Assembly: GCA_019510125.1 (NCBI GenBank)
Contig: JAEKKX010000004.1
Coordinates: forward strand, 186,001-250,000
Reading direction: 5' to 3'
Origin: Lysobacterales bacterium
GTDB taxonomy: Bacteria > Pseudomonadota > Gammaproteobacteria > Xanthomonadales > Xanthomonadaceae
Length of the DNA stretch: 64,000 nt
Part shown: positions 1,163-9,017 of the stretch, piece by piece
Position numbering within the stretch: position 1 is the first letter of the stretch
Layout of the letters: each line of letters starts with the position of its first letter
Program-made: the position numbers and the translations under genes
The notes under the pieces: generated by a model
Told to the model about the DNA's origin: nothing
The model's input: only the letters and a program-made list of their open reading frames with translations
Databases searched by the model: none

Positions 1163-2410
<1,248 letters not shown>

Positions 2411-2591
2411 CGGATTCCCCCGCGCCGTGAAGACAGGCGCAACCGGGCCAGTTTACCTGCCGCGCCTACGGCCCCGCCCATGCGTGCAGACGCCCGCGCC
2501 CGCATGCCCGCCCGCATCGCGCGCACAGGGACACCGATGCGCCCCACACGATCACACCCGCCCCCGCGAGCCCATCCCCCCGCCGGCCCCG

Positions 2592-2625
2592 GTAGGGTGG
2601 CGGTGAGCGCAGCGAACCCCACCAC
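2592..2625. repeat. Dispersed intergenic repeat-like sequence (GTAGGGTGGCGGTGAGCGCAGCGAACCCCACC)
   Basis: Imperfect palindrome resembling a widely dispersed GTAGGGTGGG...CCCACC repeat type; intergenic. Confidence 0.45.
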
Positions 2626-2676
2626 CCGGCGTCACACCTGCGCCGACCTCCCTGGCGGGCGACGCCAGCCGCCTCC

Positions 2677-2742
2677 CATCATCCCGAGCCAACGGCGAGG
2701 GACCTGCTTTCCGCCGTCATCCCGGCGCAGGCCGGGACCCAG
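2677..2742. repeat. Two adjacent REP-like elements (CATCATCCCGAGCC..GGCGAGGGACCTGC and CGTCATCCCGGCGCAGGCCGGGACCCAG)
   Basis: Both carry the [C]GTCATCCCG...GGGA core; the second is a near-perfect palindrome (TCCCGGCgcagGCCGGGA). Confidence 0.6.
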
Positions 2743-2745
2743 CCT

Positions 2746-3082
2746 TGCCCCTTCGAGGCGCAGCGTTGCCCCTCCAACCCGCACCCGTGCCCCTTTTTGG
2801 CGCACCGCTGCCCCTCGGAGCGCCAACGTTGCCCCTTTTACCTCCATCGATGCCGCTTTTTTCGCCATCGCGATCGTCGAAAAGGGGCAATGCAGGCCCT
2901 CGAAGGGGCAACGCTGCCGCTTTTTTCGCCACGCGTGCCCCTTCGAGGCGCAGCGTTGGCCCTTCGAGCGGCAGGCGTGCCCCTTTTTGGTGCAACGCTG
3001 CCGGTCCAAGGGCCATCGCTGCCGCTTTTTTCGGCATCGATGGCCCTCCAAGCGGTAACGCCGTCCCTCGCGGGCGGAGGCG
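2746..3082. repeat. Degenerate tandem array, 21-bp period, ~16 units, with two central units inverted
   Basis: Units in strict 21-nt register: TGCCCCTTCGAGGCGCAGCGT (2746 and again 2936), TGCCCCTTTTTGGCGCACCGC (2788), TGCCGCTTTTTTCGCCATCGC (2851), inverted CAGGCCCTCGAAGGGGCAACG (2893), TGCCGCTTTTTTCGCCACGCG (2915), TGCCCCTTTTTGGTGCAACGC (2978), TGCCGCTTTTTTCGGCATCGA (3020). Confidence 0.9.
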
Positions 3083-3096
3083 CTGCCCCGGCAGCG

Positions 3097-3381
3097 TCAG
3101 CCCGCCGGCTCGATCACCAGCCGCCCGGCGTCCACCCGCACCTGCACGCGCTGGCCCGGCGCGAACCCCGCCCGCTCCAGCCACACGCCACTCAGGCGCA
3201 GTACCGGGAAGCGACGACTGCCCGTCCAGAACCCGTCGCGGCGGTGCTGGTAGCTGGAGTAGGTGAGGGTGAGCTGCCGCGTGTCGGCTGTGGCGAGGGC
3301 ACGGGCGACCGGCGCGACGGCCGGCCGGTGGGGCGCGAAGTGGTGGTCATTGAATGTTCCTAGCGAAGTGTTCGAATGCAC
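3097..3381 (-). CDS. symE: SymE-like toxin (SymE family), probable GTG start; an ATG further upstream at 3504 is an alternative
   Basis: C-terminal RQLTLTYSSYQHRRDGFWTGSRRFPVLRLSGVWLERAGFAPGQRVQVRVDAGRLVIEPAG matches the SymE pattern (RxLTVxY...IPxIxLxGxWLExAGFxxGxxVxVxVxxGxIVL). Confidence 0.75.
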   Translation of the reverse strand: MHSNTSLGTFNDHHFAPHRPAVAPVARALATADTRQLTLTYSSYQHRRDGFWTGSRRFPVLRLSGVWLERAGFAPGQRVQVRVDAGRLVIEPAG

Positions 3382-3426
3382 CCCCTGTTCAGAGGGGGCG
3401 GCCGGGTGCTTGAACACGGTGCTAGG
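3359..3426. promoter_or_regulatory. Long imperfect stem-loop overlapping the symE-like translation start region
   Basis: Nested arms CCTAGC/GCTAGG (3359-3364 / 3421-3426), GTGTTC/GAACAC (3368-3373 / 3412-3417), GCACC/GGTGC (3378-3382 / 3405-3409), plus inner C-run/G-run. Confidence 0.75.
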
Positions 3427-3644
3427 CCCGCCCGCAGTTTTTCCCTTACGGGTCTTGCATGGCTGCGGACACCCGACCACAGGTAAAACTCGCCCTCCGC
3501 ACATGGGCGTGCGGAAACAACGGGCGCAAAAAAACCGCCTGCCTGTCGGGTGCGGTGTACCGCCTAGCGAATGAAGGTGTGTTCAGCACCTGCGGCGACT
3601 CTAGTCCTGCGCCTGCGACCGGTCAATGCGCCAGACCCCAACCC

Positions 3645-3688
3645 CGTCATCCCGAACACCCGCGCAGCGGGTGGAGGGATCTGCTGTT
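3645..3688. repeat. REP-like element (CGTCATCCCGAACACCCGCGCAGCGGGTGGAGGGATCTGCTGTT)
   Basis: Same GTCATCCCGA...GAGGGA[TC]CTGCT core as the copy at 2677-2709; internal hairpin ACCCGCgcaGCGGGT. Confidence 0.6.
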
Positions 3689-3767
3689 CGGGCCCGTGCC
3701 CCAGCGGGTGTCGCCTCCCGCACGGAAACGGTAAAGTTCCGGCTTCGATGCAAAGGCGGGAAAACGC

Positions 3768-5222
3768 GTGTTCGAACAGACTTTCAAGAACATCGACGAT
3801 GTTCTGCACAAGGACGCCGGCTGTACCAGCGAACTGGATTACACCGAGCAAAGCTCGTGGCTGTTGTTCCTCAAATATCTCGATGCCCTCGAACAGGACA
3901 AGGCCAACGAGGCCAAGCTCGAAGGCAAGCGCTACGACTACATCATCGACAAGGCCTACCGCTGGGAGACCTGGGCCGCGCCCAAGGGCAAGGACGGCAG
4001 GATCGACTACAACAAGGCGATGACCGGTGCCGACCTGCTGAGGTTCGTCAATCGGAAACTGTTCCCGTACCTGGCCGGGTTCAAGCAGCGCGCGGAAAGC
4101 GCCGACACCATCGAATACAAGATCGGCGAGGTGTTCGGCGAGATCAAGAACAAGCTGCAGAGCGGCTACAGCCTCCGCGATGCGATCGATCTGGTCGACG
4201 AGCTGCGCTTCCGCTCGCAGACCGAGAAGCACGAGCTGTCGCACCTGTACGAAGCCAAGATCAGGAACATGGGCAACGCCGGGCGCAACGGCGGCGAGTA
4301 CTACACGCCGCGCCCGCTGATCCGCGCCATGATCAAGGTGGTCGACCCGAAGATCGGCGAGCGCATCTACGACGGCGCCTGCGGCTCGGCCGGCTTCCTG
4401 TGCGAGGCCTTCGACTACCTGCTTCCGAAGGCGCAGAAGGCCGCCGACCTCAATGTCCTGCAGAAGAAGACCTTCTTCGGCAAGGAGAAGAAGAGCCTCG
4501 CCTACGTCATCGGGATCATGAACATGATCCTGCACGGCATCGAGGCCCCCAACATCATCCATACCAACACGCTGGGCGAGAACATCAACGACATCCAGCA
4601 ACGCGACCGCTACGAGGTGATCCTTGCCAATCCACCGTTCGGCGGCAAGGAACGCAAGGAAGTCCAGCAGAATTTCCCGATCAAGACCGGCGAAACCGCG
4701 TTCCTGTTCCTGCAGCACTTCATCAAGTCGCTGAAGCCGCACGGCCGGGCGGCCATCGTCATCAAGAACACTTTCCTCAGCAACACCGACAACGCCTCGA
4801 CCAGTCTGCGCAAGCTGCTGCTGGAAAGCTGCAACCTGCATACCGTGCTGGACATGCCCGGCGGCACGTTCCTGGGCGCGGGCGTGAAGACCGTGGTGTT
4901 GTTCTTCGAGAAAGGTGCGCCGACGCGCAAGGTCTGGTTCTACCAGTTGAACCCGGGCCGCAACATGGGCAAGACCAACCCGCTCAACGACGACGATCTG
5001 GCCGATTTCGTGGCGAAGCAGAAGACGTTCGCCGCTTCGGCGCAGAGCTGGTCGGTGGATGTGGCCGACATCGGCACTGCGACGTGGGATCTGTCGGTTA
5101 AGAATCCGAATGGTGGCGATGCGGTGGTGCTGCGGACGCCGCAGGAGATTCTGGATGAGATTGCAGTGCTGGATGCGGAGAGTGCTGAGGTGCTGGCGGT
5201 GATTCGGGGGCTTGTCGCGTGA
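3768..5222 (+). CDS. hsdM: Type I restriction-modification system, M subunit (N6-adenine methyltransferase)
   Basis: 484 aa; YYTPRPLIRAMI, DGACGSAGFL, EVILANPPFGG (NPPF motif). GTG start. Confidence 0.95.
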   Translation: MFEQTFKNIDDVLHKDAGCTSELDYTEQSSWLLFLKYLDALEQDKANEAKLEGKRYDYIIDKAYRWETWAAPKGKDGRIDYNKAMTGADLLRFVNRKLFPYLAGFKQRAESADTIEYKIGEVFGEIKNKLQSGYSLRDAIDLVDELRFRSQTEKHELSHLYEAKIRNMGNAGRNGGEYYTPRPLIRAMIKVVDPKIGERIYDGACGSAGFLCEAFDYLLPKAQKAADLNVLQKKTFFGKEKKSLAYVIGIMNMILHGIEAPNIIHTNTLGENINDIQQRDRYEVILANPPFGGKERKEVQQNFPIKTGETAFLFLQHFIKSLKPHGRAAIVIKNTFLSNTDNASTSLRKLLLESCNLHTVLDMPGGTFLGAGVKTVVLFFEKGAPTRKVWFYQLNPGRNMGKTNPLNDDDLADFVAKQKTFAASAQSWSVDVADIGTATWDLSVKNPNGGDAVVLRTPQEILDEIAVLDAESAEVLAVIRGLVA

Positions 5223-6427
5223 AGCAGGGGTGGGAAATCAAGCCATTGGGCGAAATCTGTACGATCAAGCCACCTAAGGCTGAGGCAAGAGCCAAGCTTT
5301 CCGATCGGGACGAAGTGTCTTTTGCTCCGATGGAAGACCTCGGCATCGGTGTGAAGTACATGCAGCCGCTTCGTGCTCGTCAGCTTGGTGAAGTGAGCGG
5401 AAGTTATACTTACTTCGCTGAGGGTGATGTCCTGCTGGCGAAAATCACACCATGCTTTGAGAACGGCAAGTTGGGTATTGCGCGCAATCTCCATAATGGC
5501 GTTGGCTTCGGTTCCAGCGAGTACATCGTCCTTCGGCCAAAGCCTTTATTGGATGCCGAATTTCTCTACTACTATCTCTTGCGGCCGAAGTTCACGGAGG
5601 AGGGCGCCCGGACAATGACGGGCGCTGTTGGTCACAAGCGTGTCGCTAAAGAGTTCATTGAGAACTATCCGGTGCCGCTGCCATCCTTACGCGAGCAGCG
5701 CCGCATCGTCGCTATCCTTGATAGAGCGTTGGATGGTATCGCCACCGCTAAGGCCAGCGCTGAGAAGAATTTGCAGAACGCAAGCTACCTATTCCGAAGT
5801 CACCTAGAACATTTTTTCTTGCGACACTGTGAGTTATTTGATTCGTCGTCTCTTGAGGCGCTTGCGGATAGTGATTCGCCGATCACATACGGCGTTGTGA
5901 AGCCCGGGGGCGAGGGAGATATTGCGTTTGTTCGCGGTGGTGACATTGCGCAAGGGCGTGTCCTCATGGAGCAACTTCGTACCATCGATGAAACGGTCTC
6001 TCGCCAGTACCGCAGAACTCTACTCAGAGGGGGCGAGCTTCTGATCTCCCTGGTTGGACAGCCGGGTCAAGTGGCTGTCGCCCCTGAAGAACTGAAGGGG
6101 GCGAATATCGCACGACAGGTTGGTCTCATTCGCCTCAGCAAACAGGCTGATGCCAACTACGTTAGGTACTTCTTGCAGTCGCCGGTGGGCCAAGCGGCAC
6201 TTGGAGCCAAGCAGTCAGGTTCGGTCCAGCAAGTAATCAACCTTGGAGAATTGCGGGAAGTTATGGTGCCAATCCCGGTCCTCTCAGTGCAGCGTGATGC
6301 GGTCAAGTCCTTGGATGCGTTTTCTGCGAGTATCGAGCGGCTTACGAGAGTGATGCAGTCGAAGCTGGCTGCGCTAGATGACTTGAAGAAGTCGCTCCTC
6401 CATCAAGCCTTCACCGGGCAGTTGTAA
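5219..6427 (+). CDS. hsdS: Type I restriction-modification system, specificity subunit
   Basis: 402 aa with two TRD/conserved-helix halves: PLPSLREQRRIVAILDRALD...LFRSHLEHFF and AALDDLKKSLLHQAFTGQL; GTGA overlap with hsdM. Confidence 0.95.
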   Translation: MKQGWEIKPLGEICTIKPPKAEARAKLSDRDEVSFAPMEDLGIGVKYMQPLRARQLGEVSGSYTYFAEGDVLLAKITPCFENGKLGIARNLHNGVGFGSSEYIVLRPKPLLDAEFLYYYLLRPKFTEEGARTMTGAVGHKRVAKEFIENYPVPLPSLREQRRIVAILDRALDGIATAKASAEKNLQNASYLFRSHLEHFFLRHCELFDSSSLEALADSDSPITYGVVKPGGEGDIAFVRGGDIAQGRVLMEQLRTIDETVSRQYRRTLLRGGELLISLVGQPGQVAVAPEELKGANIARQVGLIRLSKQADANYVRYFLQSPVGQAALGAKQSGSVQQVINLGELREVMVPIPVLSVQRDAVKSLDAFSASIERLTRVMQSKLAALDDLKKSLLHQAFTGQL

Positions 6428-6677: not shown

Positions 6678-9017
6678 ATGAACGAAGCCGAGACCCGCGC
6701 CGAACACATCGATCCCGCCCTCAAGGCGGCGGGCTGGGGCGTGGTGGAAGGCAGTCGCGTCCTGCGCGAGCATCGGATCACGCTCGGGCGGTTGCAGGGC
6801 GGTGGTCGCGCGAAGCCGGAGGTCGCCGACTACGTGCTGGTCTACCGCAACACCAAGCTGGCGGTGATCGAGGCCAAGGCCTGGGGCCGGCCGTACACCG
6901 AGGGCGTCGGGCAGGCGAAGGCCTATGCCGCCAAGCTGGCGTTGCGTTACACCTTCGCCACCAACGGGCAGGCGATCTACCGCATCGACATGCAGAGCGG
7001 GCAGGAGGGTGATGTCGCCGCCTACCCGACGCCCGACGAACTCTGGGCGCTGACGTTCGCCGAGCGCAATGTCTGGCGCGACCGCTTCGCCGTGGTGCCG
7101 TTCGAGAACCGCAGCGGCAGCTGGGACCTGCGTTACTACCAGGAGACCGCCATCCAGCGCGTGCTGGAGAAGGTCGCCGACGGCGCGGATCGCATCCTGC
7201 TGACGCTGGCGACCGGCACGGGCAAGACCTCGATCGCGTTCCAGATCGCGTGGAAACTGTTCGAGGCGCGCTGGTCGCTGAAACGCGACGGTGCCCGCCA
7301 GCCGCGCATCCTCTTCCTTTCGGACCGCAACACGCTGGCGGACCAGGCGTTCAACGACTTCAATGCCTTCGCGGCCTTCGAGGAGCGGGCGCTGGTGCGG
7401 ATCGAACCCGGCTCGATCGCCAAGGCGGGCGCCGTCCCGCGCAACGGCGCCGTGTTCTTCACCATCTTCCAGACCTTCATGAGCGGGCCGCCGAAGGACG
7501 GCCAGCCCTCGCCGTACTTCGGCGAATACGCCAAGGACTTCTTCGACTTCATCATCATCGATGAATGCCACCGCGGCGGCGCCAACGACGAAAGCACGTG
7601 GCGCGACATCCTCGACTATTTCTCGCCGGCCGTGCAGTTGGGCCTGACCGCCACGCCCAAGCGCAAGGACAACGTCGACACCTATCGCTACTTCGGCGAA
7701 CCCGTGTACGTGTATTCGCTGAAGGAAGGCATCAATGACGGGTTCCTGACGCCGTTCAAGGTCAAGCAGATCGCCACGACGCTGGACGAATACGTCTACA
7801 CGCCGGACGACCGCGTGATCGAGGGCGAGGTCGAGGCCGGCAAGCGCTACGAGGAGAAGGACTTCAACCGGATCATCGAGATCCGCGAGCGCGAGGTCTA
7901 CCGCGTCCGCCTGATGATGGACCTCATCGACCAGCGGCAGAAGACCTTGGTGTTCTGCGCCACGCAGGATCATGCGCTTGCGGTGCGCGACCTGATCAAC
8001 CAGATGAAGACCAGTCCCGATCCGCTGTACTGCGTGCGCGTGACCGCCGCCGACGGTGCATTGGGGGATCAGTACCTGCGCGATTTCCGCGACAACGAAA
8101 AGACCATCCCGACCGTGCTGACCACCTCGCAGAAGCTGTCGACGGGCGTGGATGCGCGCAATGTGCGCAACATCGTGCTGATGCGGCCGGTGGGCTCGAT
8201 GATCGAGTTCAAGCAGATCATCGGCCGCGGCACGCGGCTGTACGAAGGCAAGGAGTACTTCACGATCTACGATTTCGTGAAGGCGCATCACCATTTCAGC
8301 GATCCCGAGTGGGACGGCGAGCCGGTCGAGCCGGACGAGAAGAAGCCGCGCGGCGGGCGTGTGGAAGACCCGGCGGCCGATCCGGCCGAGGACAAGCCGC
8401 CGACCGTGCCGAGGCCCGAGAAGGTCAGGATCAAGCTGGCCGACGGCAAGTCGCGCCGCATCCAGCACATGATGGCGACGACCTACTGGAGCGCCGATGG
8501 CCGGCCGATGTCGTCGGCGCAGTTCCTCGAAGCGCTGTTCGGCGCGTTGCCGGAATTCTTCAGGGACGAGGACGAGTTGCGCCGGCTCTGGGGCGATCCG
8601 CAGACCCGCAAGGCCTTGCTGGAGGGGCTTGCGGACAAGGGATTCGGCCACGAAGCACTGGTCGAAATGCAGGCCATCATCGATGCGGAGGACAGTGACT
8701 TGTTCGACGTGCTGGCCCACGTTTCGTTTGCCGCCGAACCCGTGTCCCGCGAGCGGCGAGCGCAGGCCGCGAAGACGGCGGCAGAGCAGGCATTGACGGA
8801 CCCGCAGCGTGCTTTCGTCGACTTCGTGCTGTCGCAGTACGTCGCGCAGGGCGTGGATGAACTGGAGCAGGAAAAGCTGTCGCCCTTGCTGAAGTTGCGG
8901 TATCGGGACTTGAACGACGCTTTCGATGCGCTGGGCGATCCGGATCGGGTACGAGCCCTCTTCGTCGGCTTCCAGAAGCACCTTTATGCCAAGTCGATAC
9001 GCGGGGACAAGGTTTGA
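6678..9017 (+). CDS. hsdR: Type I restriction enzyme, R subunit (DEAD/DEAH-type helicase-nuclease)
   Basis: 779 aa; LATGTGKTSIAFQ Walker A, FIIIDECHRGG DEAD-type motif, LGLTATPKR, IIGRGTRLYEGK; N-terminal ADYVLVYRNTKLAVIEAKAWG nuclease-like motif. Confidence 0.95.
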   Translation: MNEAETRAEHIDPALKAAGWGVVEGSRVLREHRITLGRLQGGGRAKPEVADYVLVYRNTKLAVIEAKAWGRPYTEGVGQAKAYAAKLALRYTFATNGQAIYRIDMQSGQEGDVAAYPTPDELWALTFAERNVWRDRFAVVPFENRSGSWDLRYYQETAIQRVLEKVADGADRILLTLATGTGKTSIAFQIAWKLFEARWSLKRDGARQPRILFLSDRNTLADQAFNDFNAFAAFEERALVRIEPGSIAKAGAVPRNGAVFFTIFQTFMSGPPKDGQPSPYFGEYAKDFFDFIIIDECHRGGANDESTWRDILDYFSPAVQLGLTATPKRKDNVDTYRYFGEPVYVYSLKEGINDGFLTPFKVKQIATTLDEYVYTPDDRVIEGEVEAGKRYEEKDFNRIIEIREREVYRVRLMMDLIDQRQKTLVFCATQDHALAVRDLINQMKTSPDPLYCVRVTAADGALGDQYLRDFRDNEKTIPTVLTTSQKLSTGVDARNVRNIVLMRPVGSMIEFKQIIGRGTRLYEGKEYFTIYDFVKAHHHFSDPEWDGEPVEPDEKKPRGGRVEDPAADPAEDKPPTVPRPEKVRIKLADGKSRRIQHMMATTYWSADGRPMSSAQFLEALFGALPEFFRDEDELRRLWGDPQTRKALLEGLADKGFGHEALVEMQAIIDAEDSDLFDVLAHVSFAAEPVSRERRAQAAKTAAEQALTDPQRAFVDFVLSQYVAQGVDELEQEKLSPLLKLRYRDLNDAFDALGDPDRVRALFVGFQKHLYAKSIRGDKV

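Follow-up and report, generated by a model that had tools for sequence, protein, structure and literature searches.

A palindromic 21-bp repeat array downstream of symE in a Lysobacteraceae genome, probably an orphan of a two-part chromosomal module

The array and the genes around it

The window, a stretch of 64,000 nucleotides from the genome of a Lysobacterales bacterium, contains a short tandem repeat array close to a gene for a SymE-domain protein, an sRNA-Xcc1 homolog and the genes of a type I restriction system (Table 1). The true start of symE probably lies inside the open reading frame (ORF) listed, and the array reaches close to its other end, the decayed unit at the array's edge starting about 15 bp past the symE stop. 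The match to the sRNA-Xcc1 family reaches 71.5 bits (gathering threshold 53), and a scan of positions 2400-3800 against Rfam gave no match to SymR, the antisense partner of SymE, which leaves room for an unrelated antisense RNA. In the comparison with genomes G010 and G001, DNA homology ends at both edges of the block formed by sRNA-Xcc1, symE and the array. This block is inserted, together with hsdMS(R), between nhaP and DNA that is contiguous in genome G003. The space between nhaP and the array (2590-2745) is filled with the dispersed-repeat-like sequences GTAGGGTGGCGGTGAGCGCAGCGAACCCC and CATCCCGGCGCAGGCCGGGACCCAG. An integron cassette of Xanthomonas carries sRNA-Xcc1 upstream of symE in the same orientation (PMC12444791). 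The window has the same order and orientation, but its copy is part of a restriction island in the chromosome, and the 21-bp array follows at the 3' end of this copy.

Table 1. Coordinates of features in the window and of an ORF that recurs near related arrays
Feature	Position	Strand	Basis or remark
Array, 15 degenerate palindromic 21-bp units	2746..3061	.	segmentation, unit profile
Array, first six units	2746-2871
Array, degenerate unit after one extra base	2873-2893
Array, last eight units	2894-3061
Two units supposed to be inverted	2873..2914	.	first decayed, second a palindrome scoring alike both ways
Edge unit, decayed (16th)	3062..3082	.
symE ORF	3097..3504	-	SymE_toxin at aa 76-133, PF08845, E 2e-15
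sRNA-Xcc1 homolog, upstream of or overlapping the 5' part of the symE ORF	3392..3478	-	Rfam RF02221
sRNA-Xcc1/symE/array block	2761..3604	-	homologous as one unit to G010, similarly G001
hsdM, type I restriction system	3768-5222	+	N6_Mtase/HsdM_N
Presumed hsdS, type I restriction system	5219-6427	+	similarity to L022/L029 Methylase_S proteins
hsdM and presumed hsdS together	3768..6427		in the same insertion as the array
hsdR-like helicase ORF, same island	6678..9017	+	helicase motifs read off the translation
VEVPPQFIALCEDSGASPQAALRGMAAMVCGL ORF, locus L023	5966-6700		no Pfam match
VEVPPQFIALCEDSGASPQAALRGMAAMVCGL ORF, locus L024	5569-5970		no Pfam match
VEVPPQFIALCEDSGASPQAALRGMAAMVCGL ORF, locus L026	6868-7440		no Pfam match
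VEVPPQFIALCEDSGASPQAALRGMAAMVCGL ORF, locus L028	7249-7710		no Pfam match
VEVPPQFIALCEDSGASPQAALRGMAAMVCGL ORF, locus L027	3066-3527		no Pfam match

The array had been described in an earlier note, made from the window sequence, whose observation is confirmed in part and whose interpretation is partly supported. The 21-nt periodicity is real: self-identity of the array at lags of 21, 42 and 63 nt is 0.54, 0.52 and 0.51, where dinucleotide shuffles give 0.28 +/- 0.025 (z = 10.3, 8.9 and 8.1), and at 0.60 it is the strongest 21-bp periodicity of the 64-kb window, the runner-up having 0.48. Scored with a unit profile derived from other arrays rather than from the window's own, 14 of the 15 units reach 11-23 bits, a level to be compared with the 6.5 bits below which 99.9% of background positions fall. 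In profile searches, matches in the window's own genome go down to E 3e-13. Where about 16 units in strict register were first reported, segmentation gives 15 units and a decayed 16th in a near-strict register, with a single extra base near 2872, as also reported; length differences between orthologous arrays are mostly whole units. The units at 2746 and 2936, described as identical, do match exactly.

Each unit is a degenerate palindrome of the form TGSCCCTYNRASSGSCA-NCGN, with the consensus TGSCCCTYNRASSGSCANCGN over 138 units from ten arrays. The units fall into two core classes with CGAR-like or T-tract/A-tract centres, in agreement with the two cores, CGAG and TTTTT, that had been noticed in the window. 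There is one dyad at position 9 of the unit and a second in the NCGN spacer, and consequently the entire array is nearly symmetric. This palindromy makes the central inversion proposed for two middle units mostly unnecessary: the unit at 2894 scores 15.9 in the forward and 16.8 in the reverse direction, and its neighbour at 2873, being degenerate, fits neither (-13.1 and -2.6).

Related arrays and the array-associated protein

The window genome belongs to the Lysobacteraceae and has Lysobacter-like metagenome-assembled genomes as close relatives. Of the 11 genomes of the genus, 5 have arrays that are detected by a profile built from genus arrays only (R1), and in the family as a whole the count is 20 of 199, some of the weaker matches being unconfirmed as arrays. 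Three further arrays are found in a genome of another family of the same order (G511), and the rest of the phylum yields weak single matches only. The earlier note was prepared to give up its interpretation if no related arrays turned up elsewhere; they are present in many genera.

Arrays of the genus adjoin type I restriction-modification genes, a D12 methylase with a HerA-like ATPase, Mza genes and other DNA methylases, a defence-island neighbourhood that is suggestive but not general. At the orthologous arrays L023 and L024 the cargo on one side is HerA and D12 methylase in the former and Mza in the latter, as at a cargo-exchange hotspot, and at L026 and L028 it is methylases versus a 1542-aa protein. 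A small repeated ORF containing VEVPPQFIALCEDSGASPQAALRGMAAMVCGL also recurs near arrays of the genus (Table 1).

Many arrays that were located by array sequence alone have beside them a gene for a protein of about 150 aa, which we call array-associated protein (AAP). It was recognised via GC3-based gene calling around the arrays, starts with MSQNL, contains the motif MGxKSExFCRQTL and forms one antisense cluster when the flanking genes are clustered by ORF length. AAP has no significant match in Pfam, NCBIfam or PDB and no recognised DNA-binding domain, and the AF2 model, made with two sequences (pLDDT 44.5), is of too low confidence for use. An alignment-based search finds AAP in 80 of 249 genomes of the family, with up to 12 copies per genome. 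The arrays in G047, G087, G161 and G174 adjoin AAP, and as they are detected by R1, the motif of the window array belongs to the AAP-linked class.

Among 52 AAP loci, a 21-bp array lies downstream of the gene in 30 and upstream in 5, and 21 is the best of the lags from 10 to 40 in the downstream sequence of 32. About a third of the AAP loci carry no detectable array, and several arrays (for example G001:C8, G049 and G050) have no directly adjoining AAP. Just past the AAP stop codon there is an intrinsic terminator in 35 of the 52 loci (0.2 expected from shuffled sequences), and where both are present the terminator generally precedes the array. The gene is thus followed first by the terminator and then by the array, which places the array outside the normal AAP transcript. 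AAP genes of another gammaproteobacterial family (G986) also carry 21-bp arrays, with CTTGCGCGCAAGGCTTTTTGG-like motifs.

Several AAP copies of G986 (loci L253-L263) appear to be in two pieces, 1-44 and 42-148, possibly as a result of frameshift or decay. A distant AAP-like hypothetical protein (WP_100922920.1; L252 3001-3468) is encoded without a 21-bp array on the Thiodictyon plasmid pTs417; found only at E up to 10, it hints at a wider AAP superfamily.

The motif of the array is specific to the locus and differs wholly even among paralogs of one genome, those of G125 having GCTCGG/CCGAGC, CCAAACG, TCCGGAAG/GATTCGGGAAG and GGGTCGC. The period stays at 20-22 bp across the AAP-linked arrays and is mostly 21, and for the majority of 33 arrays palindromy is significant (p<0.05). 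Two arrays downstream of AAP show that the unit length has some latitude: the period is 20 in part of L235, adjoining a 21-bp block, and 22 in L251. Array motifs become more alike as AAP identity increases (Mantel r = 0.46 for all pairs, 0.42 between genera and 0.39 after centring on composition; p = 0.001 for each), and hence gene and array are inherited as a unit. The correlation is compatible with recognition of the array by AAP, and co-inheritance by itself would explain it without binding. This comparison shows the array class to consist of 20-22-bp palindromes in tandem that form one part of a two-part chromosomal module.

The window has a palindromic array of this kind and no adjoining AAP, and a search of its genome found no AAP gene, so the window array has probably been orphaned and retained next to symE and the type I restriction system. 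In a genome of the same genus, G007, symE, an array and AAP occur at one locus, where symE and AAP point towards the array from either side. The nhaP locus of G003 contains AAP without an array, that of the window an array without AAP. The simplest history would be that AAP was lost and the array retained beside symE, a loss that we can only infer since the window genome has no AAP and a remnant was looked for in the window and not found.

Alternative readings of the array

The earlier note placed the array beside a SymE-like gene, and within the genus this linkage is real: in three relatives (G001, G008 and G010) the array comes after symE, with the block conserved between them and the window genome, and both G007 loci have a 21-bp array next to symE. 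The window genome's second symE lies about 400 bp from a mini-array of three to four units, here upstream of the gene (L025 6851-6914 and 7294-7509; G000:C27). The SymE protein of E. coli is a MazE-like DNA-binding and nucleoid-condensing protein with predicted bridging tetramers (PMC11894785), which makes SymE a reasonable second candidate for binding the window array. SymE might thus bind an array located 3' of its own gene, with the array serving to titrate or anchor the protein. Such an operator or decoy is unlikely, though it is the best of the alternatives. The linkage is not general: 30 symE loci from other members of the family are without an array except for one low-complexity case (1 of 58 control flanks), which rejects SymE as a universal partner, and symE is missing from the neighbourhood of most of the family's arrays. 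AAP is the more general partner.

Somewhat less probable again is a neutral minisatellite, that is, a tandem repeat without function that has spread through slippage or recombination. The sporadic presence of the arrays, the gain and loss of whole units among orthologs, the many divergent units and the orphan copies are all as one would expect of it. However, a neutral repeat should vary in both period and gene neighbour, and the constancy of both counts against this explanation: the 20-22-bp period and the palindromy are held despite unrelated motifs, and the placement downstream of AAP is steady across genera and in another family.

The earlier note had also considered a structured RNA and a remnant encoding heptapeptides, both of which are disfavoured. 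The palindromic units, their palindromy despite differing locus sequences and the proximity of symE would suit an array whose transcript forms hairpin after hairpin, such as an antisense regulator of symE or the RNA partner of AAP in a system resembling type III toxin-antitoxins. Yet compensatory changes in stems are absent from both sets of units in which we looked for covariation within and between units (138 and 174 units). In the set of 138, complementary bases within the unit do not exceed their frequency in shuffled data, and positions 3 and 15 show significant anti-complementarity; the units of other genera behave in the same way with the outer pair 1-17 in G161 as the sole positive. 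The array also lies beyond the AAP terminator and has no significant Rfam match. We reject a structured RNA array on the covariation results and regard an RNA element in general as improbable. The conserved features of the unit are half-sites, of the kind that a DNA-binding dimer would contact, which, together with the near-strict register and the whole-unit length differences, point to constraint on the DNA itself.

As for coding, the reading frames of the window array are poor in stops (2 across six frames), as had been pointed out, but this is unremarkable for such units (P=0.11) and related arrays have stops in every frame. Changes between orthologous arrays are most frequent at the third positions of one frame (73 of 334, against 46 and 27 at the others), a pattern that resembles coding at first sight. 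But the 4-fold site at position 6 of the unit is nearly invariant, having changed in 1 of 48 cases, one of the most variable positions is 13, a first codon position, and single-base indels occur among related arrays. With no conserved open frame, we reject a heptapeptide-coding repeat.

The idea that the arrays are island boundaries or recombination hotspots at which defence cargo is exchanged draws on the defence genes and differing cargo at arrays of the genus and on the insertion of the window interval relative to G003, but it is very improbable given that most scanned arrays of other genera have no defence neighbour and that neither an integrase nor a target duplication was identified. A CRISPR array is rejected because the units are contiguous, divergent and without spacers. 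An origin from plasmids or phages is rejected as well, since the window array has no match in plasmids, nor a related array in phages, at E 1e-3; AAP has no plasmid or phage matches at the same threshold and no relative in viral contigs.

Proposed mechanism and comparison with known systems

The arrays and AAP genes share observed regularities of period, palindromy, gene-terminator-array order, linkage and co-inheritance. The reading that we favour, with a probability of about one half, is that the window array is an orphan of an AAP-terminator-array module in which AAP binds its own array. A dimer or higher oligomer of AAP would recognise the palindromic units as double-stranded DNA. The 21-bp spacing, equal to two helical turns, would set all the sites on one face of the helix, and from such sites a phased, bridged or wrapped nucleoprotein scaffold could be built. 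Recombination of whole units would add and remove array units, and because gene and array are inherited together during this turnover, each AAP paralog would keep its private motif. The array in the window would then be either a remnant or a site reused by another DNA-binding protein, with SymE as the obvious candidate. Of the three readings in the earlier note, a protein-binding scaffold is still the best. More tentatively, AAP and its array may constitute an undescribed class of module, in which a small helical protein recognises private two-turn palindromes and paralogs co-diversify into several distinct protein-DNA address systems within one genome.

A search of the literature, largely without subscription papers, turned up neither such arrays nor AAP. 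The module is widespread in bacteria and apparently undescribed, and the novelty concerns the module, of which the window holds the array half only. Arrays that change their sequence at constant period and palindromy while paired to an unannotated protein family had no counterpart in the protein, RNA and literature resources searched. If the binding is true, these loci offer pairs of protein and DNA that have diversified together in nature, and they give a testable function to a protein family present in about a third of the sampled Lysobacteraceae genomes. A puzzling repeat near symE becomes a concrete question of which protein uses the array. Other phyla may also contain similar small proteins and palindromic arrays of 20-22 bp.

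Three known systems invite comparison. Type III toxin-antitoxin systems (ToxIN-like) combine a small protein gene with a short tandem-repeat array and a terminator that separates the two, and the AAP module has the same components. It differs in that the array is mostly downstream, where ToxN has its repeats upstream, in that AAP matches no Pfam family and in that no RNA structure constraint is seen; we rejected this identity on the first two grounds. Iterons and plasmid partition sites (parS/parC arrays) resemble the AAP arrays in having helix-phased repeats of about 20-22 bp that are presumed to be bound by a cognate protein, but the AAP arrays are chromosomal and many per genome, and the flanking proteins identified include no replication or ParA gene. 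REP/BIME elements and their RAYT transposases (REPtrons) are likewise gene-associated arrays of intergenic palindromic units in gammaproteobacteria (PMC3733652). REP/BIME units and their dispersal with RAYT were rejected as identities because the unit consensus is without a GTAG or CGTC head tag, the arrays number a handful per genome at most and the scanned flanking proteins include no RAYT or other transposase. The AAP arrays differ from REPtrons, in addition, in that the motif is private to each copy of the gene.
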